A stretch of DNA of 40,512 nt from Chitinophaga pinensis (GTDB taxonomy: Bacteria > Bacteroidota > Bacteroidia > UBA4408): positions 1-40,512 of the forward strand of contig CAMBZU010000023.1 in the NCBI GenBank assembly GCA_945872355.1. The letters are read 5' to 3'. The notes below the pieces were generated by a model. The model saw nothing but the letters and a program-made list of their open reading frames with translations, ran no database searches and was not told the origin of the DNA. Numbering within the stretch: position 1 is the first letter of the stretch; every line of letters starts with the position of its first letter. The translations under genes and the position numbers were made by a program. This document shows, piece by piece, positions 1,455-40,512 of this stretch.

Positions 1455-3089
1455 ATGAATAAAAAACACCCCAAAGCATTGCCATACCTGTTCATGTCTG
1501 AAATGTGGGAACGATTTGGTTTTTATCTTATGCTGGGCATTTTCTTTTTGTACATGACAGATACACAAAAGGGTGGTATGGGCATGGATAAAAAACAAGC
1601 CAGTGATATCTTTGGAACCTTCATTGCATTGGTTTATCTTACTCCATTTATTGGTGGTTTATTGGCAGATAGGGTACTTGGCTATAGAACATCCATTACC
1701 ATTGGGGGGATTTTAATGGGAATAGGATACTGTGGTTTGGCTTTACCTGGCATGACTGCATTTTACACCTCCTTGTTTTTAATATGCATTGGTAATGGCT
1801 TCTTTAAACCAAATATCTCAACCATTTTAGGAAATGTATATAATCACCCTGATTACAAACATCTGAAAGATTCGGGCTACAATATTTTTTATATGGGGAT
1901 TAATATTGGCGCTTTTATTTGTAATTTTTTTGGTTCGTATTTAAGAAATTCATTCAGTTGGGGGGCCGCTTTTATGGCTGCCGGTATAGGAATGTTTTTA
2001 GGTGTTATTATATTTTGGACAGGCAATAAACACTTTAAACATGCCGATATCATAAAGCCCACAAAACCTGAAGATATGCCGGTTTCTAAAATACTTGGGG
2101 TTACTATTTTACCAATGATTGTTGCTGGTTATATTGGATGGATTATACCCGATAATATTTTTGGAAGCGATAGTACCGATGCTTTTATACTTGGAGCATT
2201 GCCTGTGGCTGGCTACTATGTAAACATTATGTTAAGAAGTGATGTCGCAGATCGCAAACCAATAGCAGCCTTGTTATCTGTTTTTGCAGTAGCCATTATT
2301 TTTTGGGCCATCTTTAAACAAAACGGCACAGCGCTTACAACTTGGGCAGAGAGTTATACTGATAGGGAAATTACACCCTCATTGGTTGCACCTGCTGCAG
2401 CTTTAGGCATGGTTCAAGAAGTTACCTACTCAAAAGATTCGGTGCCCTTGGTTGATGCACAATTTAAAGTAGCTCGAGATGCCAATGATAAAGCAATAAA
2501 AACATGGGATTACCCCATCTATTTTAAAAATATCCCAAAAGAAAAGTTACCAGCAGCCGGTGAAAGCGTAAAATTAGTTTCTACTGAATTAGGTCAAAGT
2601 ATCAATCCCTTTTGGGTCATCCTTTTAACGCCTATCGTGGTTGGATTTTTTGCATTCTTAAAAAGAAGAAATAGAGAACCAGGCACACCTTGGAAAATAT
2701 TTTACGGTTTGTTTATTACCGCCTTATCAACTTTAGTAATGGTAGGCGCTACCTATGCATGTTATAATGGTATGGAAAAAAGCAGCATGCTTTGGTTGAT
2801 AGGCGCTTATGGCGTAATAACAGTAGGAGAGTTATGCTTAAGTCCAATGGCACTTTCTTTAGTATCTAAATTAGCACCGCCAAGATTAACTGCATTAATG
2901 ATGGGAGGTTGGTTTTTATCAACTTCAATAGGAAACAAGTTGAGCGGTGTATTGGCCAGCATGTGGGATGGATACGCACATAAAGGTAATTTCTTTTTAG
3001 TAAATTTAGTTTTAGCCTTAGCCACATCCATCATTATTTTATTGATGATGAAGTGGTTGAATAAAATTACCAAAGAGTATGGTGTATAA
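1455..3089 (+). CDS. POT/PTR-family proton-dependent oligopeptide transporter
   Basis: This 544-residue polytopic membrane protein belongs to the proton-coupled oligopeptide transporter branch of the major facilitator superfamily. The family marks are present: the ExxER motif in the first helix (EMWERFGFYLMLGIF, residues 16-30), the loop motif GGLLADRVLGYR, and the helix-5 region FYMGINIGAF. The C-terminal half has a GELCLSPMALSL stretch typical of the family. A hydrophilic insertion of about 90 residues lies around 305-390, as in many Bacteroidota homologues. It should import di- and tripeptides across the inner membrane. folD follows 43 bp later and may share its transcript. Substrate range cannot be told from sequence. 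Confidence 0.92.
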   Translation: MNKKHPKALPYLFMSEMWERFGFYLMLGIFFLYMTDTQKGGMGMDKKQASDIFGTFIALVYLTPFIGGLLADRVLGYRTSITIGGILMGIGYCGLALPGMTAFYTSLFLICIGNGFFKPNISTILGNVYNHPDYKHLKDSGYNIFYMGINIGAFICNFFGSYLRNSFSWGAAFMAAGIGMFLGVIIFWTGNKHFKHADIIKPTKPEDMPVSKILGVTILPMIVAGYIGWIIPDNIFGSDSTDAFILGALPVAGYYVNIMLRSDVADRKPIAALLSVFAVAIIFWAIFKQNGTALTTWAESYTDREITPSLVAPAAALGMVQEVTYSKDSVPLVDAQFKVARDANDKAIKTWDYPIYFKNIPKEKLPAAGESVKLVSTELGQSINPFWVILLTPIVVGFFAFLKRRNREPGTPWKIFYGLFITALSTLVMVGATYACYNGMEKSSMLWLIGAYGVITVGELCLSPMALSLVSKLAPPRLTALMMGGWFLSTSIGNKLSGVLASMWDGYAHKGNFFLVNLVLALATSIIILLMMKWLNKITKEYGV

Positions 3090-3132
3090 GGTTTTTATTA
3101 AACAATAAATTAATATTATTAAAATTATTAGC

Positions 3133-4017
3133 ATGAAATTGATAGATGGAAGAAAGGTTTCAGAAGAAATATATCAATCATTAAAAATTGAAGTTGATAA
3201 AATTAAATCGGCAGGAGGGAAGGTGCCACATTTAGCAGCTGTATTGGTTGGTAATAATCCTGCCAGTCAAACTTATGTGAATGCAAAAGTAAAAGCCTGT
3301 GAGCAAGTAGGTTTTGGCTCTACTTTAGTTAAACTAGATGAAAGTATTTCAGAAATTGAATTATTAGCAGCCATTCAAAAATTAAATGACAATACAGAAA
3401 TTGATGGCTTTATTGTGCAATTGCCGCTGCCAAAGCAAATCAATGAAAACAAGGTAACGCAGGCTATTTTACCACAAAAGGATGTTGATGGATTTCATCC
3501 CACCAATTTAGGAAGAATGGTTTTGAACTTGCCATCATACTTGCCTGCAACACCTTTTGGCATTGTAAAATTATTAGAAGCCTATGAAATAGACACAGCG
3601 GGTAAACATTGCGTAGTGATTGGCCGCAGCCATATTGTTGGCTCTCCAATGAGCATTTTATTAGCAAGAAACAGCAATCCAGGAAACTGCACGGTAACAC
3701 TTTGCCACAGTCGCACACAAAATTTATCACATTATACACAACAAGCCGATATCATTATTGTGGCCTTAGGAAAACCTTATTTTTTAAAAAAGGAAATGAT
3801 TAAAGAAGGTGTTGTTGTGATTGATGTTGGTATTAGCAGGGTTGAATCTTCAAGCACCAAAAGTGGCTTTAAGCTTGCTGGCGATGCCGACTTTGATGAC
3901 ATTGCAGAAAAATGCAGTTATATTACGCCAGTGCCAGGTGGAGTTGGGCCTATGACGATTGCAAGTTTGATGTTTAATACGCTATTGGCGAATAGAAAGG
4001 AAATTTATAAAGATTAA
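3133..4017 (+). CDS. folD: Bifunctional methylenetetrahydrofolate dehydrogenase / methenyltetrahydrofolate cyclohydrolase
   Basis: The 294-residue protein has the normal FolD length. It converts 5,10-methylene-THF to 5,10-methenyl-THF with NADP, then hydrolyses this to 10-formyl-THF in the cytosol, feeding purine and formyl-Met synthesis. Visible signatures are the catalytic-lysine region SQTYVNAKVKACEQVG, the substrate motif QLPLPKQI, QKDVDGFHPTNLGRM, the nucleotide-binding VVIGRSHIVGSP, and the C-terminal TPVPGGVGPMTIASLM. The ATG start directly precedes KLIDGRKVSEEI, the usual FolD N-terminus. It lies 43 bp behind the POT transporter on the same strand; no functional link to it is evident. 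Confidence 0.97.
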   Translation: MKLIDGRKVSEEIYQSLKIEVDKIKSAGGKVPHLAAVLVGNNPASQTYVNAKVKACEQVGFGSTLVKLDESISEIELLAAIQKLNDNTEIDGFIVQLPLPKQINENKVTQAILPQKDVDGFHPTNLGRMVLNLPSYLPATPFGIVKLLEAYEIDTAGKHCVVIGRSHIVGSPMSILLARNSNPGNCTVTLCHSRTQNLSHYTQQADIIIVALGKPYFLKKEMIKEGVVVIDVGISRVESSSTKSGFKLAGDADFDDIAEKCSYITPVPGGVGPMTIASLMFNTLLANRKEIYKD

Positions 4018-4361
4018 TTTAAATTTATTAAGATTTAATTTGAGTCTACTGAACTACTGATTAGAAGCAGATTATCTTGCATTATCATTTTTTTTTGCTA
4101 CATTGCCTTGGAAAAAGAAAGTATGGCTTAAGCGTGAATTCAATGAGACTGGATGGGTGATTATACATTTTATAATTCGCAATTTGGTTTTAGAGCTATA
4201 GCAGAGTGAGAAGTTAAGTACAATTTTAAAAATAAGGATGGTCTTTTAAAAGGCCCATTGAAAAGGATAAGAAAATTATAAAAAGTGGAGACCAGCAAAC
4301 ACTTTAAAAACGGGGCGCATTCCGAAAGGCCTTATGAGTAGGAAATTTAATTTTAAAAATT
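4018..4361 (+). pseudogene. Intergenic region with a decayed reading frame (MORN-like remnant)
   Basis: No intact gene lies here. One frame from 4153 to 4341 reads like protein but is broken by internal stops: MGDYTFYNSQFGFRAIAE (4153-4206), stop, then KYNFKNKDGLLKGPLKR (4216-4266 and on), stop, then KHFKNGAHSERPYE (4297-4338), stop. The last two pieces resemble MORN-variant repeats (aromatic-x-N-G...G-P-aromatic), which in intact proteins recur every 22-24 residues. Here they also lie about that far apart and in the same frame. I infer a gene relic, but the pieces are short and the assignment is weak. Confidence 0.3.
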
Positions 4362-4966: not shown

Positions 4967-6949
4967 TTATGCAATACCACCCAATTTTTTGAATGCAACT
5001 ACAATAATTTTTAAATCTTGCCAAACAGTATAATCTTTACTGTATAACAAGTTTAACTTATTAATATTGCTGTTATTGGTTTTAACTTTAATGCCATCTG
5101 CTGGCGTTAAAACACCTTTTTTAATTACGGGTAAGGGCTTTAGCACAGGCTCATCTTGATGCTGCAGCGCATTATAGCCCACCCAAGATTTTAGTCCAAA
5201 CAACACGCTGAAAATATTTTTTATTAAGCCTTTCTTTTGAGCTACAAACATCAAGAGTATTGGAAACATTGAAAGCATTAACAATGAGGTAAAAATATCA
5301 AACAGCCTTTTGCTACGCTTGTTTTCTGGTTTGGCTATTGAATTAATGTCTATCACATACAAATCGCCTGCACTATCAATACTATTGCTGCCAACTAAAA
5401 ATAAGCTTTCTGGCGGTGCTATTTTAAAATCAACATTGGTTTGCACCAAGCGACTCATCAATTCAATAATTCTTTGAGAACTTAAATCTTTAGCACAAAA
5501 AATAATTTCATCAATTTTATGAATCATGATGCTTTCTTCTAACTGTGAAAGGCTTCCTGTAAAGTAGTCGGGATGTTTTTCCCAATCTTCCTCAACACTT
5601 AAAAATAAAATAGAAGAAGGGACAATACTTGTTTTTTCTAGTAACTCAGCTACTCTTTTCGATTCCTCATAATTACCTGCAATCAAAAACCTTTTATATT
5701 GTGCATTTCCCAAAGTATAGCCATTTATTTTTAAGCCATGCAGAATAAATCTTAAGGTTAAAGTAATGCCAATTGCAGCTGCGGCACCTAATAAAATTAA
5801 GGCCCTTGAAAATCGGAATGCTTCTGGAATTAAGGCATAGGCCACCAATATGAGTGCTGTACCAATACCAAAACCTTTAATAATTTTTACCAACTTTATG
5901 GGTTTATCATAGCCTCCCGAAATCCAAACAGCCAACAACCAAATGAGCAAATAAAAAGGAATAATGATCTCAAGTAAAGCATCTGGATAGTTTCCACCTT
6001 CAATATATTTTACATTTTTTTCCCAATAGTTCACCAATAAATAAAGTGCTGTATAAATCAAAGTTGCTTCAATACCTGGCAACAATAATCTTTTGATAAA
6101 GCGTGTGGCAATAGCTGCGCCAGCGCGCAAATAAATAGCAATGTTAATGAGCAAAGAAAACATATTAGCATGCTTATCGCTAAAATGTTTGCGCGCAAAA
6201 ATGACCATTGCTTTATAAAATACAAAGACATAATTTACACTGCTTTTCTTAGTACTTTCACCTTTATAATGTATGATACTTGTGCCTGGGAAGTAATAAT
6301 TTTTAAATCCACCTTTAATAATACGGTAGCTTAAATCAATATCTTCTCCATACATAAAAAAAGCTTCATCGAGCAAGCCCACCTTATCTAAAACACTTTT
6401 GCGCATTAACATAAAGGCACCAGATAATATCTCAACTTCATGTGTATGTTCTTTGTCGAGATAACCCAAATGATATTTACCAAACATTTTACTTTTTGGG
6501 AATAAAAAAGAGAGTCCAAATATTTTGCAAAATGCGACAGTTGGAGTAGGCAAACCACGCTTCGATTCAGGTAAAAAATTCCCTTTCCCATCAATCATTT
6601 TAACACCTAAACCACCTGCGTTTGGATGCTTATCCATGAACTCAACAACTTTTACAAAAGTATCTTCTTCAACCACTGTATCGGGGTTTAGAAGCAAGCA
6701 ATATTCACCTTTGGCAATTTTTAAGGCTTGGTTGTTGGCAAACGAGAAGCCTGTATTTTGTTTGTTGGCAATCATAACAAACTCAGGGAACTTTTGCTGC
6801 ACCATAGCTACAGATCCGTCAACTGAATTGTTATCAACCACAATCACTTCACCTTGCACATGATGCAGGGCTTTTTTAACTGAATGTAAACACTGCTCCA
6901 AAAAGTATGTTACATTATAGTTAACTATGATTACAGTTATTTTTATCAC
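4967..6949 (-). CDS. Glycosyltransferase family 2 fused to a degenerate polyprenyl-phosphate sugar-transferase module
   Basis: This 660-residue membrane protein has two modules. Residues 1-230 form a GT2 domain of the rhamnosyltransferase (WbbL/RfbF-like) type: IIVNYN, VVDNNSVDGS, LLLNPDTVV (metal-binding NPD), and DEAFFMYGEDIDLSYR. About four membrane segments follow (roughly 290-402), then a Rossmann-like region (418-520). Residues 545-655 resemble the ends of a monotopic phosphoglycosyltransferase: KRLFDIFTSLLML at the front, FGLKSWVGYN in the middle, and LLYSKDYTVWQDLKIIV at the back. The usual 80-odd residues between the first two parts, which carry the KFR.M region and the catalytic Asp-Glu pair, are absent. 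It probably adds a sugar to a lipid-linked glycan and uses the second module as a membrane platform. It lies 89 bp after accC on the same strand, with no clear partner. Confidence 0.85.
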   Translation of the reverse strand: MIKITVIIVNYNVTYFLEQCLHSVKKALHHVQGEVIVVDNNSVDGSVAMVQQKFPEFVMIANKQNTGFSFANNQALKIAKGEYCLLLNPDTVVEEDTFVKVVEFMDKHPNAGGLGVKMIDGKGNFLPESKRGLPTPTVAFCKIFGLSFLFPKSKMFGKYHLGYLDKEHTHEVEILSGAFMLMRKSVLDKVGLLDEAFFMYGEDIDLSYRIIKGGFKNYYFPGTSIIHYKGESTKKSSVNYVFVFYKAMVIFARKHFSDKHANMFSLLINIAIYLRAGAAIATRFIKRLLLPGIEATLIYTALYLLVNYWEKNVKYIEGGNYPDALLEIIIPFYLLIWLLAVWISGGYDKPIKLVKIIKGFGIGTALILVAYALIPEAFRFSRALILLGAAAAIGITLTLRFILHGLKINGYTLGNAQYKRFLIAGNYEESKRVAELLEKTSIVPSSILFLSVEEDWEKHPDYFTGSLSQLEESIMIHKIDEIIFCAKDLSSQRIIELMSRLVQTNVDFKIAPPESLFLVGSNSIDSAGDLYVIDINSIAKPENKRSKRLFDIFTSLLMLSMFPILLMFVAQKKGLIKNIFSVLFGLKSWVGYNALQHQDEPVLKPLPVIKKGVLTPADGIKVKTNNSNINKLNLLYSKDYTVWQDLKIIVVAFKKLGGIA

Positions 6950-7038
6950 CTAAGCTAAAGTAATTATATTGTTTATTGAAGTTACTTGTTTTAAGCTATT
7001 AACTCCAAACTATTAATTTTAGTGTTGTTAAAGGAAAC

Positions 7039-8535
7039 TTAACCTTTCATGTAGGTTTTGCGATTTTGTTTCCAACTGCTGTTTTGTTGCTCAGTTTCGA
7101 CCAATACCGATTCCATTTTATGTTCTTGAAAAGCAATACTTGCAGCTATTGCAGCAATTTGTTGATCTTCTTCTGTCATTAAAGGTTTTATACTGTCTGG
7201 ATTGAAATATTGTTTTACAAAGTGAGTATCAAAATTGCCTGAGATAAAAGCATCATGCTGCATCACAAAGTTACAAAATGGCAAAGTGGTTTCAACACCT
7301 GAAATATGGTAATCATTAATTGCTCTAATCATACGCATTCTGGCTTCTTCGCGATCTTTACCGAAAGTTATCAATTTGGCAATCATTGGGTCATAATAAA
7401 TAGGTATTTGCATTCCTTCTTCAAATCCATCATCAACACGAACACCCAATCCTTGCGGTGTTTTATAGGTGTGAAGGGTACCAATATCTGGCAAGAAATT
7501 ATTCAATGGATCTTCGGCGTACACGCGCACTTCAATGCTATGCCCGTTAATTTTTAAATCTTCTTGTGTAAAGCTTAATTTTTCGCCACGAGCCACTTTA
7601 ATCTGCTCTTTTACTAAATCCAATCCTGTGATTTGTTCTGTTACAGGATGCTCTACTTGCAAACGCGTATTCATTTCTAAGAAATAAAAATTCTTATTTT
7701 CATCGAGTAAAAACTCTACAGTACCCACACCAACATAATCGCAAGCCTTAGCAACATTCACGGCGCATTCGCCCATTGCCTTTCTAATTTCAGGCGTAAG
7801 CACACATGAAGGTGCTTCTTCAATTACTTTTTGATGTCTTCTTTGCACCGAACATTCACGTTCAAAAAGATACACAATATTTCCATGTGTATCGCCTAAT
7901 ACTTGTATTTCAATGTGTCGAGGACCAGCAACATATCTTTCAATAAAAACAGCACCATTGCCAAAGGCAGAAACTGCTTCACTCACGGCCAATTGCATTT
8001 GCTCTTCAAAATCTTCAACACGTTCAACAATGCGCATGCCTTTACCGCCGCCACCTGCCGAAGCTTTTACTAGGATAGGGAATCCCACGGCTATAGCTGT
8101 TTTTTTAGCTACTTCAATATCATCTATAGCACCATCGGTACCGGGCACCATTGGTATATTGTATTTTTTTGCTGCAGCTTTTGCGCTTAATTTATCACCC
8201 ATTATGTTCATAGATTCAGCCGAAGGTCCTATAAATATAAGTCCAGCATCCTTCACCATAGCAGCAAAATTGGCGTTTTCTGATAAAAATCCATAACCAG
8301 GATGTATGCCATCAACACCTAATTTTTTACAAACGTCAATAATTTTTTTACCATCTAAATAACTTTGAGACGAAGCTGGAGGGCCAATGCAAATAGCCTC
8401 ATCGGCATATTTTACATGTGGTGAATTTCTATCTGCTTCACTATATACAGCTACAGTTTTAATACCCATTTCGCGGCAACTTCTCATCACCCTTAATGCG
8501 ATTTCTCCTCTGTTTGCAATTAGAATCTTATTCAT
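7039..8535 (-). CDS. accC: Biotin carboxylase subunit of acetyl-CoA (acyl-CoA) carboxylase
   Basis: This 498-residue protein is an ATP-grasp biotin carboxylase. It carboxylates the biotin on the carrier protein using ATP and bicarbonate, the first step of malonyl-CoA synthesis. Visible are the N-terminal KILIANRGEIALRVMR, the Gly-rich ATP loop ASAGGGGKGMRIV, the ECSVQRRHQKVIEEAPS strand, and the catalytic EMNTRLQVEHPVTE. It has about 50 residues more than the E. coli enzyme; the extra C-terminal tail (near EHKMESVLVETEQQ) is common in acyl-CoA carboxylase alpha subunits. No biotin carrier or carboxyltransferase gene is adjacent, so acetyl- versus propionyl-CoA specificity cannot be settled. 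A full -33/-7 promoter lies just upstream. Confidence 0.93.
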   Translation of the reverse strand: MNKILIANRGEIALRVMRSCREMGIKTVAVYSEADRNSPHVKYADEAICIGPPASSQSYLDGKKIIDVCKKLGVDGIHPGYGFLSENANFAAMVKDAGLIFIGPSAESMNIMGDKLSAKAAAKKYNIPMVPGTDGAIDDIEVAKKTAIAVGFPILVKASAGGGGKGMRIVERVEDFEEQMQLAVSEAVSAFGNGAVFIERYVAGPRHIEIQVLGDTHGNIVYLFERECSVQRRHQKVIEEAPSCVLTPEIRKAMGECAVNVAKACDYVGVGTVEFLLDENKNFYFLEMNTRLQVEHPVTEQITGLDLVKEQIKVARGEKLSFTQEDLKINGHSIEVRVYAEDPLNNFLPDIGTLHTYKTPQGLGVRVDDGFEEGMQIPIYYDPMIAKLITFGKDREEARMRMIRAINDYHISGVETTLPFCNFVMQHDAFISGNFDTHFVKQYFNPDSIKPLMTEEDQQIAAIAASIAFQEHKMESVLVETEQQNSSWKQNRKTYMKG

Positions 8536-14181: not shown

Positions 14182-16251
14182 TTATCTACTTAAAATCTTA
14201 AACTCTGTTCTACGATTTAATTGACGGCCTTCATCAGTATCATTTGGCGCAATAGGCTGCGAGAGCCCATATCCTTTGTATTCTAATCTTTCTTTTGCAA
14301 TGCCTTTCCCAATTAAATATTCAACCACCGATTTTGATCTGCTTTCCGATAATATTTGATTGTACTGCATTGCGCCTTTATTATCAGTATGGCCACTAAT
14401 TTCAATTTTTAGGCTAGGCACATCAGTTAAAAGTTTGGTTAAACGTTCTAACTCATTGGTAGATTCTGGTCTGAGCGTAGCTTTGTCAAAATCGAAGAAG
14501 ATATTACGCAAAACAATTTTTTGTCCAACTTGAACATTTTTCAATTGAACATCTTTTACCACTTCTTGATAGGAAGCAGAAAGCGGAATATCAAAATTTT
14601 CTGAGTGAAATAAATAACCTTCAGCTTTTACAGCGATACCATAATTTTTACCAGAAGGCAATGTTACCAGGTATTTACCCGATTTGCTGTTGGATTTAAA
14701 AGTGGCAATTTCAACATTTAAAGTATTATCAATAAGCACAATTTCAGCTTCTAATGGTTTGTTTGTTATGGCATCAGAAATAATACCTTTTAATAAGGTA
14801 ACAGCATTTGCATTTATTTCTACTGCTGGTGAAATATACACTTCACTAATTGGCGCTTCAACACTAGCTAATAAATTATCTTCATTGCTTAAAAGCACGG
14901 GTTTTTCAGGACCTAAAAATGAAATCATATAAATATCTTTTTCACCAAAACCATCATTTTTTACAGAGGCGTAATAACCATGTTTTCCGCTGGCTGAAAC
15001 CACAAAAAACACATCATCATCAGGCGTATTTATTGGATAACCAAGGTTTACAGGTGCGCTCCAAACCCCATTTTTTAATTCACACTTAAAAATATCAAAA
15101 CCTCCAATACTGCTATGGCCTTCAGAACTAAAATAAAGTGTTTTGCCATCTGGAACAATAAAAACACCTTCTTCATTGTATTGGGTATTTATACCAGTGC
15201 CAACATTATAAGCTTCTTCCCATTTATTTTTTTCATTGCGATTGGTATAATAAATATCGCGTCCGCCGTAACTTCCTTCCTTCCTGTCACTCACAAAAAA
15301 TAATGTTTTACCTTCATAAGAAATTGAAGCAGATGATTCATGCTCACTGCTGTTTATGGCTTTTGACATTTTTTCTGGTTCGCTAAATTTATCTCCAATC
15401 AAGTTACTCTGATAAATATTGCCATAACCTTTGTCATCGCGGTAGGTAAACATAATTTGCCCATCTGGCGAAACATTAACAGTGGCATCATGCCCCAGTG
15501 TATTAATGGGAGGCCCAACATTAGAAGGCAATGCCCACTCTTCATTAAATTTATAGGTTACAAAAATATCTTCAAAATACTCATCATAATTTTCATCAAT
15601 ATTACCTCCAGTAGTGGTATTTCTTCTGGAGGTAAAGTACATTACATCTTCATCGGCAGAAATAATTGGCCCATAATCAGGGTATGGAGAATTTACCTTG
15701 TTTCCAATGTTATCGATAAAAACACGCACTGGATTTTTAACCAATTCCTTACCATAATTACATTCAGCAATTTTTTTAGCAGCATCGGCCATCAGAAAAA
15801 CTTGGTCTTTTTTCTTTGGATCGAGCGCTGCTTTGAATGTTTTATATTCAGCAATGGCTTTGTCCCAATCCATATTTAAGTGATAACCTCTACCTAAATA
15901 ATAATGTATTTCAGGATCAATGTTTGCATTTAGTTCATAGGCTTTTTCAAAATGTGCTTTTGCTTTTATTTTAAAACTACTGTTGATATAGCATACACCA
16001 ATTCTAAAGTTTAAAAAAGCATTGTTAGGATTAAATGTTTGTGCTTTTAAATATTGTTCTAATGCAAATTTATAGCGACCAGGCCTGCTGCCCTCATACT
16101 CTTCGTTACCCATTTCAAGTGCTCTTTTGGCTTCCCTCAATTGGTCTTTTTGATTTGGAAAAAAATCTTTTTCAAAAGGTGTTTCTTTTGCTGTTTGTCC
16201 AAAAACAGAAATGCTTAATGTTATAAATAATATAGAAATAATATGCTTCAT
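14182..16251 (-). CDS. PorE-like OmpA-family protein: TPR, WD40-like beta-propeller, regulatory-like domain, OmpA
   Basis: The 689-residue exported protein has an N-terminal signal (MKHIISILFITLSISVFGQ, cleaved near residue 19). TPR-type helices follow at about 35-160 (NPNNAFLNFRIGVCY, DPEIHYYLGRGYH). A PD40 beta-propeller at about 180-430 has repeated DG-LYFSS/GGxDIF blades such as GGFDIFKC. A carboxypeptidase-regulatory-like domain lies at about 490-570 and an OmpA peptidoglycan-binding domain at about 580-689 (FFDFDKATLRPES, ISGHTDNKG, LNRRTEF). This domain order is that of PorE, a periplasmic component of the type IX secretion and gliding machinery. Other Bacteroidota OmpA proteins share it, so PorE function is not proven. 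It follows the TPR gene by 31 bp and probably shares its operon. Confidence 0.85.
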   Translation of the reverse strand: MKHIISILFITLSISVFGQTAKETPFEKDFFPNQKDQLREAKRALEMGNEEYEGSRPGRYKFALEQYLKAQTFNPNNAFLNFRIGVCYINSSFKIKAKAHFEKAYELNANIDPEIHYYLGRGYHLNMDWDKAIAEYKTFKAALDPKKKDQVFLMADAAKKIAECNYGKELVKNPVRVFIDNIGNKVNSPYPDYGPIISADEDVMYFTSRRNTTTGGNIDENYDEYFEDIFVTYKFNEEWALPSNVGPPINTLGHDATVNVSPDGQIMFTYRDDKGYGNIYQSNLIGDKFSEPEKMSKAINSSEHESSASISYEGKTLFFVSDRKEGSYGGRDIYYTNRNEKNKWEEAYNVGTGINTQYNEEGVFIVPDGKTLYFSSEGHSSIGGFDIFKCELKNGVWSAPVNLGYPINTPDDDVFFVVSASGKHGYYASVKNDGFGEKDIYMISFLGPEKPVLLSNEDNLLASVEAPISEVYISPAVEINANAVTLLKGIISDAITNKPLEAEIVLIDNTLNVEIATFKSNSKSGKYLVTLPSGKNYGIAVKAEGYLFHSENFDIPLSASYQEVVKDVQLKNVQVGQKIVLRNIFFDFDKATLRPESTNELERLTKLLTDVPSLKIEISGHTDNKGAMQYNQILSESRSKSVVEYLIGKGIAKERLEYKGYGLSQPIAPNDTDEGRQLNRRTEFKILSR

Positions 16252-30684: not shown

Positions 30685-32310
30685 ATGGTGTCAAAAAAAA
30701 TATTTATTTCATGTGTAGCAAGTATTTTATGTATACTTAACGCTGGTGTAAATGCCCAACCCAAAACTACACCTGCATCAAAATCTAAAATTTCAGCAGC
30801 AGCAGCAGCAATGGCTATTGATATGAATGACCCAGTTGCTGTGGCAAACATGAAGTTTAATGCAAAAAACTATGAAGATGCATTGGCTGACTACCTAAAA
30901 TTACTTGAAGGAAATGAAAAAAATGCTTTCTATAACTATAGGGTAGGGGCTTGTTATATCGAAACAAATGTTGACAAACTAAAAGCAAAAACTTTTTTAG
31001 AAATGGCTGCTGCAGATCCCAATGCCGATAAAATGCTATTTTACAACTATGCCAAATCACTTACTTTTCATCTAGAATTTGACAATGCTATTGAGCAATT
31101 CAATAAATTTATGGCAACGCCCAGCGGAAAAATCATGGAAAAAGAAATTCTACATGAAATTGAAATGTGCCAAAATGCAAAGGAGCTAATTAAATTGCCC
31201 GTTGCTGTTGCTTTTGAAAATCTTGGGAAAGAAATTAATTCTCCTTTTGCAGATTACAGTCCTTTTATTTCTGAGGGGGAGGATTTCTTAATGTATAACT
31301 CACAACAACCAGATAATTCAGTAAAAAAAGTAGATGGTAAATATGCCAGCAATGTTTATATCTCATCCGTAAAGGAAGGTAAATGGCAACAAGGTGAAGA
31401 TATTGGACCAAATGTAAATACAAAAGAAGGTGATGAAGAAATTGTAGGTGTGTGTGCTGATGGCAATACACTTATTTTTAGCTTTGATAATTTAGAAGGT
31501 AAAGGCGACGTTTTTATTGGTCCTAAAATGGATAACCAAATCTTAAAACCTTTTAAAATAAACACTAACATAAACAGCCTCAAATTTGAAGAAAGTGCTG
31601 CATCTATTGCGCCTGATGGTAAAACCTTGTACTTTGCTAGCAATCGTCCGGGTGGTATTGGAGGCTTTGATATTTATAGAACACGTATTTTACCCAGTGG
31701 CGAATGGGGCGAAGCTTATAATTTAGGTCCAGATGTAAACACTATCTATGATGAAGATTTTCCAAATATTTCACTCGATGGTTATACCCTTTATTTTAGC
31801 TCAAAAGGGCACAATTCAATGGGCGGTTATGATATTTTTAAATCAGAAATTTTAGTAGATACCTTAAACTTTGGCCCAGCTAAAAATGTTGGATACCCTA
31901 TAAACACGCCATTTGATGATAAAAACTTGTGCATGAGTGGAAAAGGTCGTTACGGCTACATGTCGGCGCTGCGCAAAGAAGGACAGGGTGATTTAGATGT
32001 TTACCGCCTTACATTCAAAGCTGTTGACGCAGAACTAACTGTAGTAAAAGGGAACCTTAAGATCTTTAAAACAGATAAAATCCCAGCTAACTCAATGGTT
32101 GAAGTGTTTGAATCAAAATCAAATAATACTTTTGGCCAGTATAAAGTAAACTCAACAACAGGTAAATTTGTGATGATTTTACCTCCAGGTAAATATAGTT
32201 TAGATGTGATTTCACAGGGGTTCAAAACGCATTCAGAAAATTTAATTATTCTCGATAAAGGTTCATTTGTGCCAACAATGGATATAGAGATGAGTCTTTT
32301 GCCTGAATAG
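30685..32310 (+). CDS. PorE-like TPR/beta-propeller protein without an OmpA domain
   Basis: The 541-residue exported protein has a signal peptide (residues 1-24, ending VNA) and an Ala-rich linker (ISAAAAAMAID). TPR-like helices follow at about 48-170 (KNYEDALADYLKLLEGNEKN, FYNYRVGACYIE). A PD40 beta-propeller at about 185-430 has blades such as DGKTLYFASNRPGGIGGFDIY and DGYTLYFSSKGHNSMGGYDIF. A carboxypeptidase-regulatory-like domain at about 445-530 (FVMILPPGKYSLDV) ends the protein. It is a paralogue of the OmpA protein at 14182-16251, with the same order of domains but no peptidoglycan-binding end. A role in the periplasm or outer membrane is likely. The rhomboid gene starts 7 bp downstream. 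Confidence 0.83.
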   Translation: MVSKKIFISCVASILCILNAGVNAQPKTTPASKSKISAAAAAMAIDMNDPVAVANMKFNAKNYEDALADYLKLLEGNEKNAFYNYRVGACYIETNVDKLKAKTFLEMAAADPNADKMLFYNYAKSLTFHLEFDNAIEQFNKFMATPSGKIMEKEILHEIEMCQNAKELIKLPVAVAFENLGKEINSPFADYSPFISEGEDFLMYNSQQPDNSVKKVDGKYASNVYISSVKEGKWQQGEDIGPNVNTKEGDEEIVGVCADGNTLIFSFDNLEGKGDVFIGPKMDNQILKPFKINTNINSLKFEESAASIAPDGKTLYFASNRPGGIGGFDIYRTRILPSGEWGEAYNLGPDVNTIYDEDFPNISLDGYTLYFSSKGHNSMGGYDIFKSEILVDTLNFGPAKNVGYPINTPFDDKNLCMSGKGRYGYMSALRKEGQGDLDVYRLTFKAVDAELTVVKGNLKIFKTDKIPANSMVEVFESKSNNTFGQYKVNSTTGKFVMILPPGKYSLDVISQGFKTHSENLIILDKGSFVPTMDIEMSLLPE

Positions 32311-34421: not shown

Positions 34422-34952
34422 CTATCTTGAAAATGGACTTATTTTTTGCCCAATCTCGCTTGTGTAATAATCATTAACAATTGAATTATTACCAACTATT
34501 GTTGCCAATTTTAAATAAACATGATTGCCAATATTAGCTTCATGGTCAATGATTACGCCTGAATTAACAATTGTATTTTCTCCAATTTTGCACATGGCAT
34601 TAATAATGGCATTAGCCAAAACAACAGTGCCAACACCAATACTAACTTCACTTCCAATCACCGCATTTTGATGGATGATTGTTGCTGGTTTTAAAAATTG
34701 AATTAATGAAATAAATGCCCGGGCTCTTGCTTCATTATCACCAATAGCAACTATAAAACAATCGACTTTATTGGTCAAAGTTGACACATTTTCTTGTGAG
34801 CAAATTACAGCAACTTTGTCAATTACTAAAGTTCCAATAGCCAATTTATTATCCACAAAACCAAGCACTTCATATTTGTTTTGTGTCAAGATAGCGTCAT
34901 AAACCACTTTACCATGACCCCCTGCACCTATAATTACAATTGATGGCTTCAT
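34422..34952 (-). CDS. NeuD/PglD-type sugar O- or N-acyltransferase, C-terminally truncated
   Basis: The 176-residue protein starts with a PglD-like Rossmann domain (PSIVIIGAGGHGKVVYDAI, VLGFVDNK). It then enters a left-handed beta-helix of hexapeptides (HQNAVIGSEVSIGVGTVVLANA, CKIGENTIVNSGVIIDHEANIG), which forms the acyl-CoA site between trimer subunits. Normal members have about 205-215 residues and close with a GxGxVV...GNPAK segment. Here the frame ends early with an unusual GQKISPFSR. A GMASVLKAS-like piece appears out of frame downstream (about 34350-34380). This suggests erosion or a sequencing frameshift. It is the last gene of the polysaccharide operon, 2 bp after the GT4 gene. Confidence 0.8.
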   Translation of the reverse strand: MKPSIVIIGAGGHGKVVYDAILTQNKYEVLGFVDNKLAIGTLVIDKVAVICSQENVSTLTNKVDCFIVAIGDNEARARAFISLIQFLKPATIIHQNAVIGSEVSIGVGTVVLANAIINAMCKIGENTIVNSGVIIDHEANIGNHVYLKLATIVGNNSIVNDYYTSEIGQKISPFSR

Positions 34953-34954
34953 GT

Positions 34955-36037
34955 TTATATATTGTTGTAACCGCTAATATCCTTATACAAATTAACCATT
35001 TTATTCACATTGTTCTTCCAAAAATATTCATTTTCAACCTTTAATCTTCCTTGTAAGCCCATTTTAATTCTTAAACTTTCATCTAAAATTAACTTTTCGA
35101 GCGCATTTGCAGTTGCTATAAAATCTTTAGGAGGAACTAAAAAACCTGTTTCGTTATTTTGAACAACTTCTGGTAAACCACCTACATCAGTTGCAATTAT
35201 TGGCAAACTGCATGAAGAAGCCTCAACTGCCGCAACTCCGAATGTTTCTGAATCTAAAATAGATAAAATTGCAAAGACATCGAAACTTGACATTAGGTTG
35301 ATATACTTCTCAAAATCAGCATTTTGATTTACATAACCATGAAAGGTTACTTTGTCAAAAACACCTAACTCTTTTGCCAGCGACTCTAAAAATGATCTCA
35401 GCGGACCATCGCCAACAATTTCTAACTTAATATTATCATGCCGCTTACAAACTATTGAGAAAGCTCTAATTAAAAATTCTACTCCGTATTTTTCAGAAAG
35501 TGTTCTTACAGTAGCAATCCTAATAAAATTATCTTTAGCCAAATCACGCTTTTTAAATTTTTCAATATCAACACCAAAAGGAATGAGCGTTACATTTTTA
35601 TTTGTCAATTTTGAAATTTCTGTCTTTGTAATCTTTGACAAAACTGTAACTGCATCGGATTTTTTAAACGAACTAATTAAAAGTTGCTTCATTAAGACAT
35701 TCTTAGGACTATCGAAAATATCTGCTCCCCAACCAGTAATAACAAATGGATGAAAATTTGCTCTCGCACCAAGATATCCATAACTTGTTGCATAATGCGC
35801 GTGAATTAAATCTGGATTTATTAAACTCAGGTATTTTCTTACGGTTCTGGTGTTTAAAAAGAAATCTAATTTATTATTAAAATATATTTTTAGAGGATGA
35901 TAGGTAACTTTATCGAATTTAACTCCTCTATCAAATGAGATTACATGTAATTCAATTTCCTCAAATTCACTAATTGCCTTCACCCATTTTTGTATATGAA
36001 CACTTCCGTTCTCTCCTAATATGACAACCTTTAGCAT
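34955..36037 (-). CDS. GT4-family glycosyltransferase
   Basis: The 360-residue GT-B fold enzyme opens with VVILGENGSVHIQKWVKAIS, has DLIHAHYATSYGYLGA in the N-terminal lobe, and LIPFGVDIEKF and IATVRTLSEKYGVEFLIRAF at the start of the second. The E-x7-E motif is in DSETFGVAAVEASS, followed by PIIATDVGGLPEVVQNNETGFLV. These are the features of retaining GT4 transferases such as WcaL or PglA, which use nucleotide-activated sugars. It would add one sugar to the lipid-linked repeat unit on the cytoplasmic face. It is 13 bp after the polymerase gene and 2 bp before the acyltransferase gene. Confidence 0.92.
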   Translation of the reverse strand: MLKVVILGENGSVHIQKWVKAISEFEEIELHVISFDRGVKFDKVTYHPLKIYFNNKLDFFLNTRTVRKYLSLINPDLIHAHYATSYGYLGARANFHPFVITGWGADIFDSPKNVLMKQLLISSFKKSDAVTVLSKITKTEISKLTNKNVTLIPFGVDIEKFKKRDLAKDNFIRIATVRTLSEKYGVEFLIRAFSIVCKRHDNIKLEIVGDGPLRSFLESLAKELGVFDKVTFHGYVNQNADFEKYINLMSSFDVFAILSILDSETFGVAAVEASSCSLPIIATDVGGLPEVVQNNETGFLVPPKDFIATANALEKLILDESLRIKMGLQGRLKVENEYFWKNNVNKMVNLYKDISGYNNI

Positions 36038-36050
36038 AAAATAAATTTGT

Positions 36051-37505
36051 TTAATGAATCTCTTTTCTAGTGCAAAATGATATGAGTAATATAGGTAAAA
36101 TTACACCTTCAACGATCATGGCTTTATATGCTTCAGGCCCTGCTGTAATAAAGGTTACAATTTGACTACAGATTAAATATGGCATTAAAAACTTCAGAAA
36201 GATGATGAATTTATTTTGATATTTTAAATTTAAAAATTTGATCCTAAACGAGAATACAAATAATAACGCTAGTAATATTGCCCCTATAAAAATGCCCAAA
36301 ATTCCAAAATTAAGATACCATGCTGTAGCATGATGTATTGTATATATCTGTCCAGGAGCCGCATTTACGGACTTCGCATAATAACTATAAATATCAGGTG
36401 GTCTTTTTGCATAAACCGATCTTGGAATTATTGAACTAAATAGATAAATTAAACTTGAACCGTGCGTAATAGGTACCTTTTTTTCTAAAACGCCATACAT
36501 TGAAAAATGAGCGTAAAACAATTCATTGCTAAGGAAAAACGAGCCTAAGGCATGTTTAGACTTTGCTACGCCTGATTCTTGATTATTATTATTTTCCTTT
36601 TTAAGCGATAAACCTTGGTCATATCTTGGATGCGCCAAATTATTAATTAGTTTCGGGATACTGGTCGACCTGAAAAAATTATTCATTAGAAATATACTAA
36701 ATACAAGTAATACTATCGCTCCTAATTTTTTATAATTAATGTTTTTAAACTCATTTAATGAAATTAACAGGCAAATAACTAAACCTGAAAGTATTTCTCT
36801 TCTGTTGCCTAGCATTGCAATATATATTGAAGAAATCGAACAACATAAAAATAAAATGACAAAGCTTAATTTCTTCTTGTTGATATTGATATTGTATTTG
36901 TTATTTTTTAATATTGTAAAAGAATAAGCAATAAAAGGAATAATAATAGCAAATTCATTCGCAAGTTGATGTATAGTATAATATGGATTAGTATTGGCCC
37001 TCGTAATAATATATATCGATTTTTCATTAGCAATAGCATAAAATAGTTCTTTCCTTAAAACATAAATACTTATAAAAATAAAGAACAATGACATCAACAT
37101 TATATAGTTGGTATTGATTGAAAGTTTAAAAGGAATATGTTTCTCATTTAAATTTAATGCATCACCTAAATGTTGCTTTTTTTTCATCAATATAAGATAG
37201 GTAAATTGAAATATGAGAATGAAAAACACATAAAGTAAGCAGGCGTTTAAATAATTAAAATCGAAACTCACTTTAAATAATCTATCGAACATCGGTAAAT
37301 AATGTAATCCAATTTCGGCGCCTTTAAAGCCTAAAAATGCATCTATAGGGAAGAAAATGGCACCGCCTAATGTAAAATAGTATATAAAAAATGTACTAAT
37401 AGGCAAGGTTAAATCTCTATTTAAACGCCACATTTTCAATGCGTTTAAGAAAATTAATCCTGTGGAGCCAAGTAAAAATAAACAAAAGGTAATTAAAAAT
37501 AACAT
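36051..37505 (-). CDS. Wzy-like O-antigen/oligosaccharide polymerase
   Basis: The 484-residue protein is almost entirely hydrophobic, with about a dozen predicted membrane segments. It has a large hydrophilic loop near 285-370 (FRSTSIPKLINN, KSKHALGSFF, IIPRSVYAKRPPD), as in Wzy polymerases. The loop has a KRPPDIYSYYAK segment and the protein ends near SFCTRKEIH. No sequence signature names the family, so the call rests on topology and on position between Wzx and a glycosyltransferase. It would join lipid-linked repeat units at the periplasmic face. It begins 1 bp after the Wzx stop, so the two are certainly co-transcribed. Confidence 0.75.
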   Translation of the reverse strand: MLFLITFCLFLLGSTGLIFLNALKMWRLNRDLTLPISTFFIYYFTLGGAIFFPIDAFLGFKGAEIGLHYLPMFDRLFKVSFDFNYLNACLLYVFFILIFQFTYLILMKKKQHLGDALNLNEKHIPFKLSINTNYIMLMSLFFIFISIYVLRKELFYAIANEKSIYIITRANTNPYYTIHQLANEFAIIIPFIAYSFTILKNNKYNININKKKLSFVILFLCCSISSIYIAMLGNRREILSGLVICLLISLNEFKNINYKKLGAIVLLVFSIFLMNNFFRSTSIPKLINNLAHPRYDQGLSLKKENNNNQESGVAKSKHALGSFFLSNELFYAHFSMYGVLEKKVPITHGSSLIYLFSSIIPRSVYAKRPPDIYSYYAKSVNAAPGQIYTIHHATAWYLNFGILGIFIGAILLALLFVFSFRIKFLNLKYQNKFIIFLKFLMPYLICSQIVTFITAGPEAYKAMIVEGVILPILLISFCTRKEIH

Positions 37506-37506
37506 G

Positions 37507-38778
37507 TTAAACTAGTTTGTTTATTTTCAGTAAAGAATAGTAGGTAATTATGCCTAAAAAATTAATACTAATTGAAAATACGATTAACGTATTTGTCAGT
37601 GTAAATATATCTAAGAATTTTATAGTAAAGAGTGATACGATGAAAAATATGAAGGAAATTGAAATATTTACTGTGTTTTTAGCCTTTGCGTAAAAAGCGT
37701 CAATGATACTTCTAATTATACTAAAAACACTATAGCCAATAACCCCAGTAAATACAATTTTTAAATATAAGGCTGTATTGTTTTCAGCTGAAATACTGAA
37801 AATATTTAACACAAATTCGGCTAAAAAATTAATGGCAATGATTGAAAAAATACCAATTGAAAGCGCGAGTGCTAATAATTTACCACCGATGCGCTTTAGC
37901 TGAACAAAATCTTTATCAAATACAATTTTTGAAGCCTTTGGTAATAAAATAATATTGATTGGTGACATAAAAGCAATAATAATATTGAATAAACTTATAC
38001 AAAATGCAATATTACCAGCTTCTATAATTGAAAAATAATTTGTTGCTATAAAGGTAGGCAAGGCTATAAAGAGGCCTAAAACAACTTCTCCGGGCATTCT
38101 TTGTAAACCATAATTTGTAAGTTTGATAAAATTTTCTTTAAAAAATAAATTCTTAAAATTCAATAAGGGAATTTGAAGCAAATTTATAATCGACAGAAAA
38201 ATTATAGTTGAAACACTCAAAACAATAAAATAATCTAACATATTATCTGCAAAATAGCAACAAATGAGGGGTAAAACGCCTAAATTTATCAATTGAACCA
38301 AGCCCGACATTTTAAAATTAAACTGCCCCCTAAAAAAATTATAAACGCAAGCATGCAACATTAGACTATAAACAAATAGCAAGTTGGCAAAAATCATCTT
38401 TTTATGGAACGCATCTCCAAAAACCATGGAGGAGCAATAATCAGGAAAAAATAAAAATAAAATACTACCAAGCACCAAAAGCATCGTGACAATGATAACT
38501 GCTGTATAATGAATTTGCAACTGTTTTTGTTTTGACTCCAAGGGTAAAAATTTAGGCAATGAAACTCCTAAACCTAGCATGAGTAGGGGCATCAAAAAGC
38601 CAATCAATCGCTTACTTATTGTAAATTCTGAAAAACCCAAAGTTTCAAAGCGGATATTCACTATTCTAAAAAGCAAAATACTTATCACAAGAATTATAAA
38701 CTCTACACCAAAAGTTACAGCATAATCTATGATGATGTGTTTGCCAATTTTTAATTTAAATTTATTGATTATTCCCAT
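37507..38778 (-). CDS. Wzx-like lipid-linked oligosaccharide flippase (MOP superfamily)
   Basis: The 423-residue protein has about 12 membrane segments and reads as a polysaccharide-biosynthesis flippase. It shows an N-terminal basic stretch (GIINKFKLKIGKH), then DYAVTFGVEFIILVISILLF, LGLGVSLPKFLPLES, and PINIILLPKASKIVFDKDFVQL in the middle. That last motif (LP-x-xSK) is common to Wzx proteins. It moves undecaprenyl-linked repeat units from the cytosolic to the periplasmic leaflet. It is 13 bp behind the dimethylformamidase-like gene and 1 bp ahead of the polymerase. Confidence 0.85.
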   Translation of the reverse strand: MGIINKFKLKIGKHIIIDYAVTFGVEFIILVISILLFRIVNIRFETLGFSEFTISKRLIGFLMPLLMLGLGVSLPKFLPLESKQKQLQIHYTAVIIVTMLLVLGSILFLFFPDYCSSMVFGDAFHKKMIFANLLFVYSLMLHACVYNFFRGQFNFKMSGLVQLINLGVLPLICCYFADNMLDYFIVLSVSTIIFLSIINLLQIPLLNFKNLFFKENFIKLTNYGLQRMPGEVVLGLFIALPTFIATNYFSIIEAGNIAFCISLFNIIIAFMSPINIILLPKASKIVFDKDFVQLKRIGGKLLALALSIGIFSIIAINFLAEFVLNIFSISAENNTALYLKIVFTGVIGYSVFSIIRSIIDAFYAKAKNTVNISISFIFFIVSLFTIKFLDIFTLTNTLIVFSISINFLGIITYYSLLKINKLV

Positions 38779-38791
38779 TTCAATATTTTAA

Positions 38792-40078
38792 TTAACTTCT
38801 TAAATAATCAATGCTGTTTTTTGTGATCCGCTGAATGACACTCTTACTCAATGAATTTTTCCAACACCATTTTTCATTTCCTATGATTAGTAATTTTCCG
38901 GATTTCTCACTTCTTTTAATTAAAAATATACCTGTAACTGTTTGTTTACCATTTTGGATACTATGGTCGTATGCCAATATTTCCTTGCTAATAAAATTTG
39001 AATCGTCTTTCAAAGCAATTGGGAACCTTTTAAAATCAATATTGTCAACCGCAATTGAGTTTGTATTTTCATTATTTAGGATTATCAAAGAGTCGCTTAT
39101 AAAATTAAAAATAGGATGTGCCATTTGAATAATTTTAAATCCGCCTAAACTCTTTTCATATACATTTCTTTCATAACCCAATTCATAACTGCAGCCTATG
39201 CTGCTAATGTTGGGTTTAATTTGACTCCATAATCCTAGTGCTTTTTCAGGTTCAATTACTAATTCCTCATTTTTCCATAATTTAAAAGCTAAAGTATTAT
39301 TTTCTGGATTGTATCGAAATTTATTATTCATTAAGTTAGAACATATAGCTAAAACATTTTTTCCGTCATCAATAAAACTATCGAAGTTTTCTCTTTGCTT
39401 ACTGCTCCAGAATGATGAATACCCATAAAGAACCAACATGTTACTTTGTTGGATATTGGCTTGCTCCTCTAAATCTAAATCAGAAATATAATTAACAGAC
39501 TTGCCATGATAAGTACTATCTATCCAATTAATAAAAAAGAAAGGATTGTTTCTTAACCACAAGCCTCTTTTCAAACTTAATACTTCAGCAGCCAATCCAT
39601 CACTCGAATTACCACTATCAAAACTCTTTCCTCCTTCATTAGAAAGCGCCATAAAATTAGCGTAAGGAAAAACTACTGTAATACTATTTTTTATTTGAGT
39701 TTCCTTTACAAGAAAGGGTACAACATTGCCGAACAAATAAATTCCACTTTTCAGATTTTTTGTATTGTAAGAAAACTTATTAATGTAATTATAGCCATGC
39801 TCATATAACTTTTTATCAGAATTAGGTGTCTGCACCTTTAAATCTAAAATTAATGAATCAACTATTTTATTGTGAACATCATAAATACAAACAATCCCTT
39901 TTTTATGATCTGCTTTCGGATTCAGATAAAATTCAACATTTTGCCCTCTTTTGACGGAAAAATTTAATGTATAGCCGCTAATAATTTCGATTCTTTTCGT
40001 GTACTTTTGGTGTTTAAATACATATATTGCCGAAAAAATAAATATAAAAAAATAAACAACCCGAGTAGCAGATTTCAT
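38792..40078 (-). CDS. N,N-dimethylformamidase beta-subunit-like domain protein, membrane-anchored
   Basis: The ATG at 40078 gives 428 residues starting MKSATRVVYFFIFIFSAIYV, one membrane anchor or signal; upstream sequence to 40171 is less protein-like. A beta-sandwich (about 35-130) is followed by a domain that resembles the C-terminal part of N,N-dimethylformamidase large subunits. It has SITVVFPYANFMALSNEGG, NPFFFINWIDS, VNYISDLDLEEQANI, MLVLYGYSSFWSSKQRENFD and KNVLAICSNLMNN, i.e. a GATase-I-like fold. From memory the family motif is HDEYW; here it reads YSSFW, with Phe in place of the Tyr. Enzymatic activity is thus doubtful. It heads the Wzx/Wzy operon, 13 bp before Wzx, so a role in a surface polymer is plausible but unproven. 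Confidence 0.6.
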   Translation of the reverse strand: MKSATRVVYFFIFIFSAIYVFKHQKYTKRIEIISGYTLNFSVKRGQNVEFYLNPKADHKKGIVCIYDVHNKIVDSLILDLKVQTPNSDKKLYEHGYNYINKFSYNTKNLKSGIYLFGNVVPFLVKETQIKNSITVVFPYANFMALSNEGGKSFDSGNSSDGLAAEVLSLKRGLWLRNNPFFFINWIDSTYHGKSVNYISDLDLEEQANIQQSNMLVLYGYSSFWSSKQRENFDSFIDDGKNVLAICSNLMNNKFRYNPENNTLAFKLWKNEELVIEPEKALGLWSQIKPNISSIGCSYELGYERNVYEKSLGGFKIIQMAHPIFNFISDSLIILNNENTNSIAVDNIDFKRFPIALKDDSNFISKEILAYDHSIQNGKQTVTGIFLIKRSEKSGKLLIIGNEKWCWKNSLSKSVIQRITKNSIDYLRS

Positions 40079-40084
40079 AGTAGA

Positions 40085-40512
40085 TTGATAATACAAAATA
40101 ACATAAAAATAGTGAGCATCAGAAATAATTTTATTTGCTTTATTGCTTTTGCTTTGCCGCTCAGTAAGCAATTAGTTCCTCCTTTAATTATCTTAACTTT
40201 AATTCTATGGCTTTTTGAAGGTAAATTAAAGGAAAAAATACAAGCAGCTAAAGCAACATACATTTTACCTGCAATAAGTTTTTATCTTTTGCATCTCCTT
40301 GGCATGGTATACACTTCTGATTTAAAAGCGGGAGGTTTTGATCTTGAGCAAAAACTTACACTTGTTATGCTTCCCCTGCTTTTCCTAACAAAACAAGATT
40401 TTAATAAGGTATTATTTCATCAAATATTAAAAAGTTTTGTTTTCGGGTCTGTATTAGCAGGTATTATTTGTGTCACCAATGCATTGGTCAAGTATTATTT
40501 TTCAAATGAAAT
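40085..40512 (+). CDS. O-antigen ligase-like membrane protein (N-terminal part, cut by window edge)
   Basis: An open plus-strand frame runs to the window edge with at least 133 codons. It reads FICFIAFALPLSKQLVPPLI, LTLILWLFEGKLKEKI, YILPAISFYLLHLLGMVYTS, FDLEQKLTLVMLPLLFL and FVFGSVLAGIICVTNALVKYY. These are strings of membrane helices with the short loops of WaaL/O-antigen-ligase proteins. No ATG fits; candidate starts are a TTG at 40085 and a GTG at 40112, and the TTG is used here. The gene is divergent from the dimethylformamidase-like gene, whose ATG is only 6 bp away. It would attach the finished polymer to its lipid or protein carrier. Confidence 0.7.
   Translation, partial: MIIQNNIKIVSIRNNFICFIAFALPLSKQLVPPLIILTLILWLFEGKLKEKIQAAKATYILPAISFYLLHLLGMVYTSDLKAGGFDLEQKLTLVMLPLLFLTKQDFNKVLFHQILKSFVFGSVLAGIICVTNALVKYYFSNE

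Follow-up and report, generated by a model that had tools for sequence, protein, structure and literature searches.

What does a protein of the dimethylformamidase (DMFase) family do when its gene lies among genes for a surface glycan? The question is posed by an ORF at 38792..40078 on the minus strand of the window, by which we mean the whole stretch of 40,512 nucleotides analyzed here, an entire contig of a 3.4-Mb genome assigned to Chitinophaga pinensis. The ORF begins with an ATG at 40078 and encodes 428 amino acids that match the DMFA2_C family (PF20254) with 51.6 bits and E=1.3e-13, above the curated cut-off of 27 bits; it is the only PF20254 match in the genome. Together with profile and fold matches, this identifies the product as a putative membrane-anchored, metal-less member of the family. 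A first-pass annotation had likened it to the C-terminal domain of DMFase, placed its gene at the head of a Wzx/Wzy polysaccharide operon, and connected it with N-formyl or amide groups on a glycan. The protein and its genomic setting are considered in turn below, and both point to a different role.

Results

The DMFA2_C gene lies in a surface-glycan locus

On the minus strand, the DMFA2_C gene is followed by genes for a flippase-like membrane protein (37507..38778), a polymerase-like polytopic membrane protein (36051..37505), a GT4 glycosyltransferase (34955..36037; PF00534, 9.3e-39), and a PglD/NeuD-like sugar acyltransferase (34422..34952; PF17836, 6.1e-18; TIGR03570, 5e-36, which is below the TIGR03570 cut-off). 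The end of the DMFA2_C gene (38792) is separated by 13 bp from the start of the flippase-like ORF (38778), as the first-pass annotation had stated. A Pfam search of the flippase-like and polymerase-like proteins gave no match; the former is tentatively named from its position and a weak profile match and the latter was assigned by context. The GT4 and PglD/NeuD-like genes on the same strand and a divergent O-antigen ligase gene agree with the surface-glycan locus that had been proposed. The description of the gene as heading an operon holds for the minus strand, but it overlooks the divergent ligase gene on the plus strand, which is the conserved partner. Elsewhere in the window, two PD40 beta-propeller proteins are encoded at 30685-32310 (+) and 14182-16251 (-), the second of which also carries TPR and OmpA domains and resembles PorE-type proteins of type IX secretion.

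The protein has a DMFase-like layout without the pentraxin domain

An AlphaFold2 model built from six sequences (mean pLDDT 74.8, pTM 0.79) reveals three predicted segments. The N-terminal transmembrane helix spans residues 2-23 (40010..40075, minus strand), with no lipobox or obvious cleavage site, and it bears out the membrane anchor suggested earlier. An Ig-like domain at residues 32-125 (39704..39985, minus strand) corresponds to DMFase domain I according to the profile, the model, and the structure alignment, and a GATase1/ThuA-like domain at residues 131-428 (38795..39688, minus strand) corresponds to DMFase domain III by PF20254, the model, and the structure alignment. Comparison of the model with the PDB by VIA-align returned 8I59 (Z 24.1) and 6LVB (Z 23.2), both aligned over residues 31-428, as the best matches, followed by ThuA-like proteins (15.4), OST48 (13.3), and IFT52 (12.9). 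The fold is thus modeled as GATase1-like, in keeping with the GATase-I fold anticipated by the first-pass annotation, and this is a fold common to many families.

Relationship to DMFase is also detected by sequence. While a phmmer search of PDB chains with the window protein alone found nothing useful and profiles were required, a profile of eight relatives found the DMFase large subunit (6lvb) with E=5e-4, and the alignment covers the 'GY..S...G...FY' start of domain I. In the model, the Ig-like domain joins the GATase1-like domain directly, the pentraxin-like domain II being absent. The profile and structure matches together imply that the protein has the layout of the DMFase large subunit minus pentraxin domain II, plus a membrane anchor. 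The likeness to DMFase proposed from the sequence is therefore upheld for domain III, but it was drawn too narrowly, since the Ig-like domain I is present as well. Comparing the window protein with the Paracoccus DMFase large subunit (6LVB, Z 23), both have the Ig-like domain I and the GATase1/ThuA-like domain III, whereas the window protein lacks domain II, the iron ligands, and the catalytic histidine, is membrane-anchored, and is encoded in another genomic setting. Likewise, N-acetyl-(R)-beta-phenylalanine acylase (8HUY/8I59), the top structural match (Z 24), has the same fold but comprises about 770 residues, and the window protein is without the H-x-E metal-site motif of that family. The stretches 146-176 and 266-288 of the model have pLDDT values below 50, and the geometry of the pocket can therefore not be read from it.

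The iron site is replaced by a new set of conserved residues

In Paracoccus DMFase, iron is coordinated by Tyr399, Tyr440, and Glu521, His519 is essential, and each of the single mutants Y440A, E521A, and H519A inactivates the enzyme (PMC7686228). In the profile alignment to 6lvb, the H519-P-E521 columns read Tyr-Ser-Ser, so that H519-x-E521 of DMFase becomes Y220-S-S222 in the window protein. These residues belong to the sequence YSSFW at residues 220-224 (39407..39421, minus strand), which occupies the site of the catalytic H-x-E-Y(W) motif and has lost both the H519 and the E521 positions. Alignment of residues 175-449 of the relative L066 with DMFase 437-755 equates Y440 with the tyrosine of 'GGxS(L/F)Y', which corresponds to D154 of the window protein, within GGKSFD. 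Y399, the tyrosine of 'AYN', corresponds to L145, a mapping that is a little less certain and is based on the shared 'T.T..AY' context. A tyrosine is kept at the Y399 column in L015, L049, L111, and L112, with the other site residues missing. By this alignment, all three iron ligands and the catalytic histidine are replaced in the window protein. The first-pass annotation had read YSSFW for an HDEYW-like motif and suspected an altered metal site; the loss is more extensive than was suspected.

We then compared alignment columns between 12 metal-less members, described below, and 11 proteins that keep the motif. The columns that are invariant in the motif-keeping proteins and lost in the metal-less clade include Y145, Y154, H220, E222, Q253, and R255, among others. 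In the clade, Asn141 is present in 11 of the 12 members, where the motif-keeping proteins have threonine, and Asn252 is found equally often (11/12) in place of their tryptophan. Asn251 occurs in 10/12 and Tyr218 in 11/12, and position 297 is serine or threonine in every member, while in the motif-keeping proteins it is mostly aspartate. Because these near-fixed residues occupy former active-site positions, reuse of the surface is favored over simple decay. The alternative offered earlier, a divergent structural domain, comes nearer the mark than an amidase does, but the new conserved set suggests repurposing. A GATase-type cysteine nucleophile at Cys246 was considered and rejected, the position being Cys, Ser, Asn, or Ala across the clade.

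The metal-less members share an N-terminal anchor

Anchor and lipobox classes were assigned by a simple pattern scan, with four later members judged by eye. All eight clade members scanned have an N-terminal hydrophobic helix and no lipobox, and the four later ones are alike by eye. Among the motif-keeping members, most carry a lipobox or a signal peptide, and several may end in a T9SS tail. We infer that the helix is uncleaved and lies in the inner membrane, which would leave both of the following domains on the periplasmic side.

A WaaL-type ligase is encoded head-to-head with the DMFA2_C gene

The divergent gene on the plus strand (40112..40512) is the 5' part of a Wzy_C/WaaL-type O-antigen ligase gene, cut by the contig end and recognized by a profile of five relatives (3.4e-40). 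Its ORF is open from 40007, and the likely start is a GTG at about 40112, approximately 34 bp from the DMFA2_C ATG at 40078. Full-length orthologues match PF04932 (1.4e-24 and 2.2e-23) and, in a profile search, the WaaL structure 7tpg (4.1e-15); the ligase profile also matches an oligosaccharyltransferase (9rmk, 4.9e-6). The invariant histidine of 'LNxHNQ' is retained. By these matches, the partner is a WaaL-type ligase, which may transfer glycan to lipid A-core or to protein, or may act as a polymerase. The start codons of most divergent pairs are separated by a few to about 40 bp, and by a few to about 35 bp in the window (40076-40114), L111 (4558-4563), L112 (8995-8999), and L049 (8545-8551). 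Between such close start codons, two promoters with their own ribosome sites would not fit, and the 5' ends of the two divergent transcripts probably overlap.

The ligase, and not the flippase and polymerase, is the constant neighbor

A contig scan with the window protein as a single query found no relatives, and an alignment-based scan found five; the relatives of the window protein are from Bacteroidota MAGs. A profile search over 395 genomes of the class then detected members of the DMFA2_C family in 29, and the surrounding stretches were read. Metal-less copies paired with the ligase were the window protein, L011-L015, L045, and L049. A later search of the taxonomic family of G173 (46 genomes), made after the pairing pattern had been noted, added L110, L111, and L112, all metal-less and each head-to-head with a ligase gene, which fit the pattern. 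It also added L114 (genome G401), likewise metal-less, whose neighbors are genes for a WecB-type epimerase, a GT2, and an asparagine synthase and whose ligase is on another contig. Overall, the head-to-head arrangement with the ligase was observed for 11 of the 12 metal-less, anchored members and for none of the 26 other family matches, which were judged within the fetched stretches, some of them shortened by contig ends. Fisher's exact test gives 1e-8 for this pairing, a value that overstates the independent evidence, as the 12 members are related by descent. The 26 other matches comprise 22 proteins that keep HxE, one with KxE, two without HxE (L057 and L059), and the weak ThuA-like match L068. 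The contrast is also seen within a single genome, G413, which has both a ligase-linked metal-less copy (L112, 7775-8995, minus strand) and an unlinked lipoprotein copy with an intact GHNEYW (L113, 8203-9543, minus strand). L113, L044, and L046 illustrate the motif-keeping Bacteroidota proteins, which have the same Ig-like and GATase1-like layout at less than about 30% identity but retain H-x-E-Y-W, carry a lipoprotein signal or signal peptide, and have no ligase nearby.

The ligase is therefore the constant partner of the metal-less clade genes, and the linkage to Wzx/Wzy stressed by the first-pass annotation was rejected as the defining context. Three genomes of a single genus (those of the window, L011, and L012) are alone in having the same flippase, polymerase, and GT4 genes beside the DMFA2_C gene. 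The adjacent gene of L013 is for a flippase of another type, and L014, L015, L045, and L049 have other far-side neighbors, so that these five are without the adjacent flippase/polymerase pair of that genus. The DMFA2_C-ligase pair itself persists down to about 27% protein identity, across families, and amid otherwise different neighbors. One genome of the same genus, G002, has no DMFA2_C match; its ligase gene lies at a contig start, and the absence may be an assembly gap. The ligase family is present in 254 of the 395 genomes of the class (E 1e-30), often within operons that include glycosyltransferase, DegT-type aminotransferase, and initiating sugar transferase genes (names by eye). Most of these genomes are without the metal-less protein, which thus is not generally required by the ligase family.

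Several other family matches have distinct arrangements. L057 (7826-10366) and L059 (6982-9513) carry the DMFA2_C-like domain in the C-terminal half of fused, ligase-unlinked proteins of about 845 amino acids, with NSQ and ESR in place of HxE, and their loss of the motif is perhaps independent of the metal-less clade. L047 (2606-9601) encodes a protein of 2331 amino acids whose N-terminal part is a DMFA2_C region (KSEYW), and the gene is flanked by genes for a DegT-like aminotransferase and a polysaccharide-type dehydratase (names by eye). In L054, neighboring genes (2142-4304 and 5271-7211) encode intact-motif DMFA2_C proteins of 646-720 amino acids, together with a gene for a small PKD-like lipoprotein, and this arrangement partly recurs in L060 and L061.

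The protein and ligase trees split alike

In a DMFA2_C tree with the eight members then known, for which no root was inferred, a branch supported at 100/98 divides the eight ligase-linked proteins from the others. The partner ligases, including that of G002, are split from 19 ligases without a DMFA2_C neighbor at 80/71, and the inner splits of the ligase tree match those of the protein tree (L015 with L049, and L014 with the family of the window). With the tree unrooted, the change is most naturally, though provisionally, read as a loss of the metal site. The 12 metal-less members probably form one clade, and the pairing with the ligase may be a single event maintained by descent.

Discussion

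On the family, fold, metal-site loss, anchor, gene pairing, and matching tree splits indicated by these sequences, we base the proposal that the window protein is a pseudoenzyme descended from the DMFase/N-acyl-amino-acid acylase family, probably a non-enzymatic helper of the ligase rather than a solvent-degrading enzyme. Its N-terminal helix, uncleaved, would anchor it in the inner membrane with both domains facing the periplasm, and its iron site would have been exchanged for the conserved Asn-rich set. There, it would serve the WaaL-type ligase, the product of its head-to-head neighbor, as a non-catalytic partner. Most likely, it would bind the undecaprenyl-linked glycan, or the acceptor, and either position it at the ligase or switch the ligase on. 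Contact with the ligase, glycan binding, and an effect on ligation are predictions of this model. We give about even credence to this reading, in which the pseudoenzyme faces the periplasm from the inner membrane, binds glycan, and aids the ligase.

Other explanations have to be weighed against this one. An active iron amidase, DMFase-like or N-deformylating, with N-formyl or amide groups on the polysaccharide as its substrate, would accord with the family membership and fold. However, Y399, Y440, E521, and H519 are all replaced, and alanine mutants at the last three positions are inactive in DMFase (PMC7686228); the residue map thus largely rules out such an enzyme, which we regard as very improbable, and the N-formyl or amide chemistry raised in the first-pass annotation is unsupported with the iron ligands and catalytic histidine gone. 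Alternatively, the protein could be an enzyme with an altered site, such as a periplasm-facing deacylase or hydrolase, that dispenses with the DMFase iron center and trims or modifies the glycan, or the carrier of the glycan, ahead of ligation. Such an enzyme could draw on N141, N251/N252, and S/T297, which are conserved at former active-site positions together with D200 and D202, and on residue 246, the apparent GATase nucleophile-elbow position, which is Cys or Ser in most members. D200 and D202, however, are equally invariant in the motif-keeping proteins and so look structural, residue 246 varies among Cys, Ser, Asn, and Ala, and across the 12 members no histidine is invariant and no Cys-His-Glu triad was seen. 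We consider this alternative rather unlikely.

The pairing might also be explained if the DMFA2_C gene were a hitch-hiking neighbor with a separate envelope role, held beside the ligase gene by overlapping start codons or promoters. The few to about 40 bp between start codons in most pairs could hinder separation, and the members then known were a single clade. Against this, the pair outlasts divergence to about 27% identity, different families, and changed neighbors, and G401 keeps both genes even though they are on separate contigs, with the DMFA2_C gene still among glycan genes. Mere hitch-hiking is accordingly judged unlikely, and a non-catalytic ligase partner remains the preferred reading.

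A parallel to a non-catalytic ligase partner is offered by OST48/Wbp1, which similarly has a GATase1-like luminal domain, a second luminal domain, and one membrane helix, is non-catalytic, and partners a transferase of lipid-linked oligosaccharide. Sugar binding and the recruitment of lipid-linked oligosaccharide have been put forward as roles of the GIFT domain of Wbp1/OST48 (PMC7226087). The window protein may work in an OST48/Wbp1-like way, which does not imply membership of the GIFT family. Its likeness to OST48 is at the level of the fold (Z 13) with no sequence match, and the partner of OST48 is STT3 and not a WaaL-type ligase. The membrane anchor of OST48 is at the opposite end from that of the window protein. 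No sequence match of the window protein to a GIFT-type family was found, and a sequence search of the PDB turned up neither an OST48 nor a GldG chain, which confines the GIFT parallel to the fold. The relative L049 matches PF09822, the GldG-type family, at 1.1e-7 and 31.9 bits, below the cut-off of 34.7. A further comparison is provided by the N-domain of Agd3, a triad-less, GATase1/ThuA-like domain that was tested as a glycan-binding module and resembles 3RHT and 4JQS (PMC7229062), structures that the window protein resembles too. Agd3, however, is fungal, is fused to a deacetylase, and has no ligase partnership. As a tentative extension, somewhat doubtful at present, a dead iron amidase may have become the dedicated, non-catalytic subunit of a bacterial O-antigen (or protein-glycan) ligase on its periplasmic side, and it would then match OST48/Wbp1 by convergence or through the shared GATase1-like fold.

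Our literature search turned up neither a description of an accessory subunit of WaaL-type ligases nor a paper tying DMFA2_C proteins to polysaccharide loci. Related polymerases that use Und-PP do have membrane-anchored partners, Wzz with Wzy and PBP2 with RodA (PMC10030265, PMC10449877). As a candidate for such a partner, a metal-less relative of an amidase that is linked with a single ligase family can be tested directly, and it would account for a set of genes that annotation would label dimethylformamidase. It would also allow comparison with the OST48 subunit, whose own role is still described only as possible recruitment of lipid-linked oligosaccharide.
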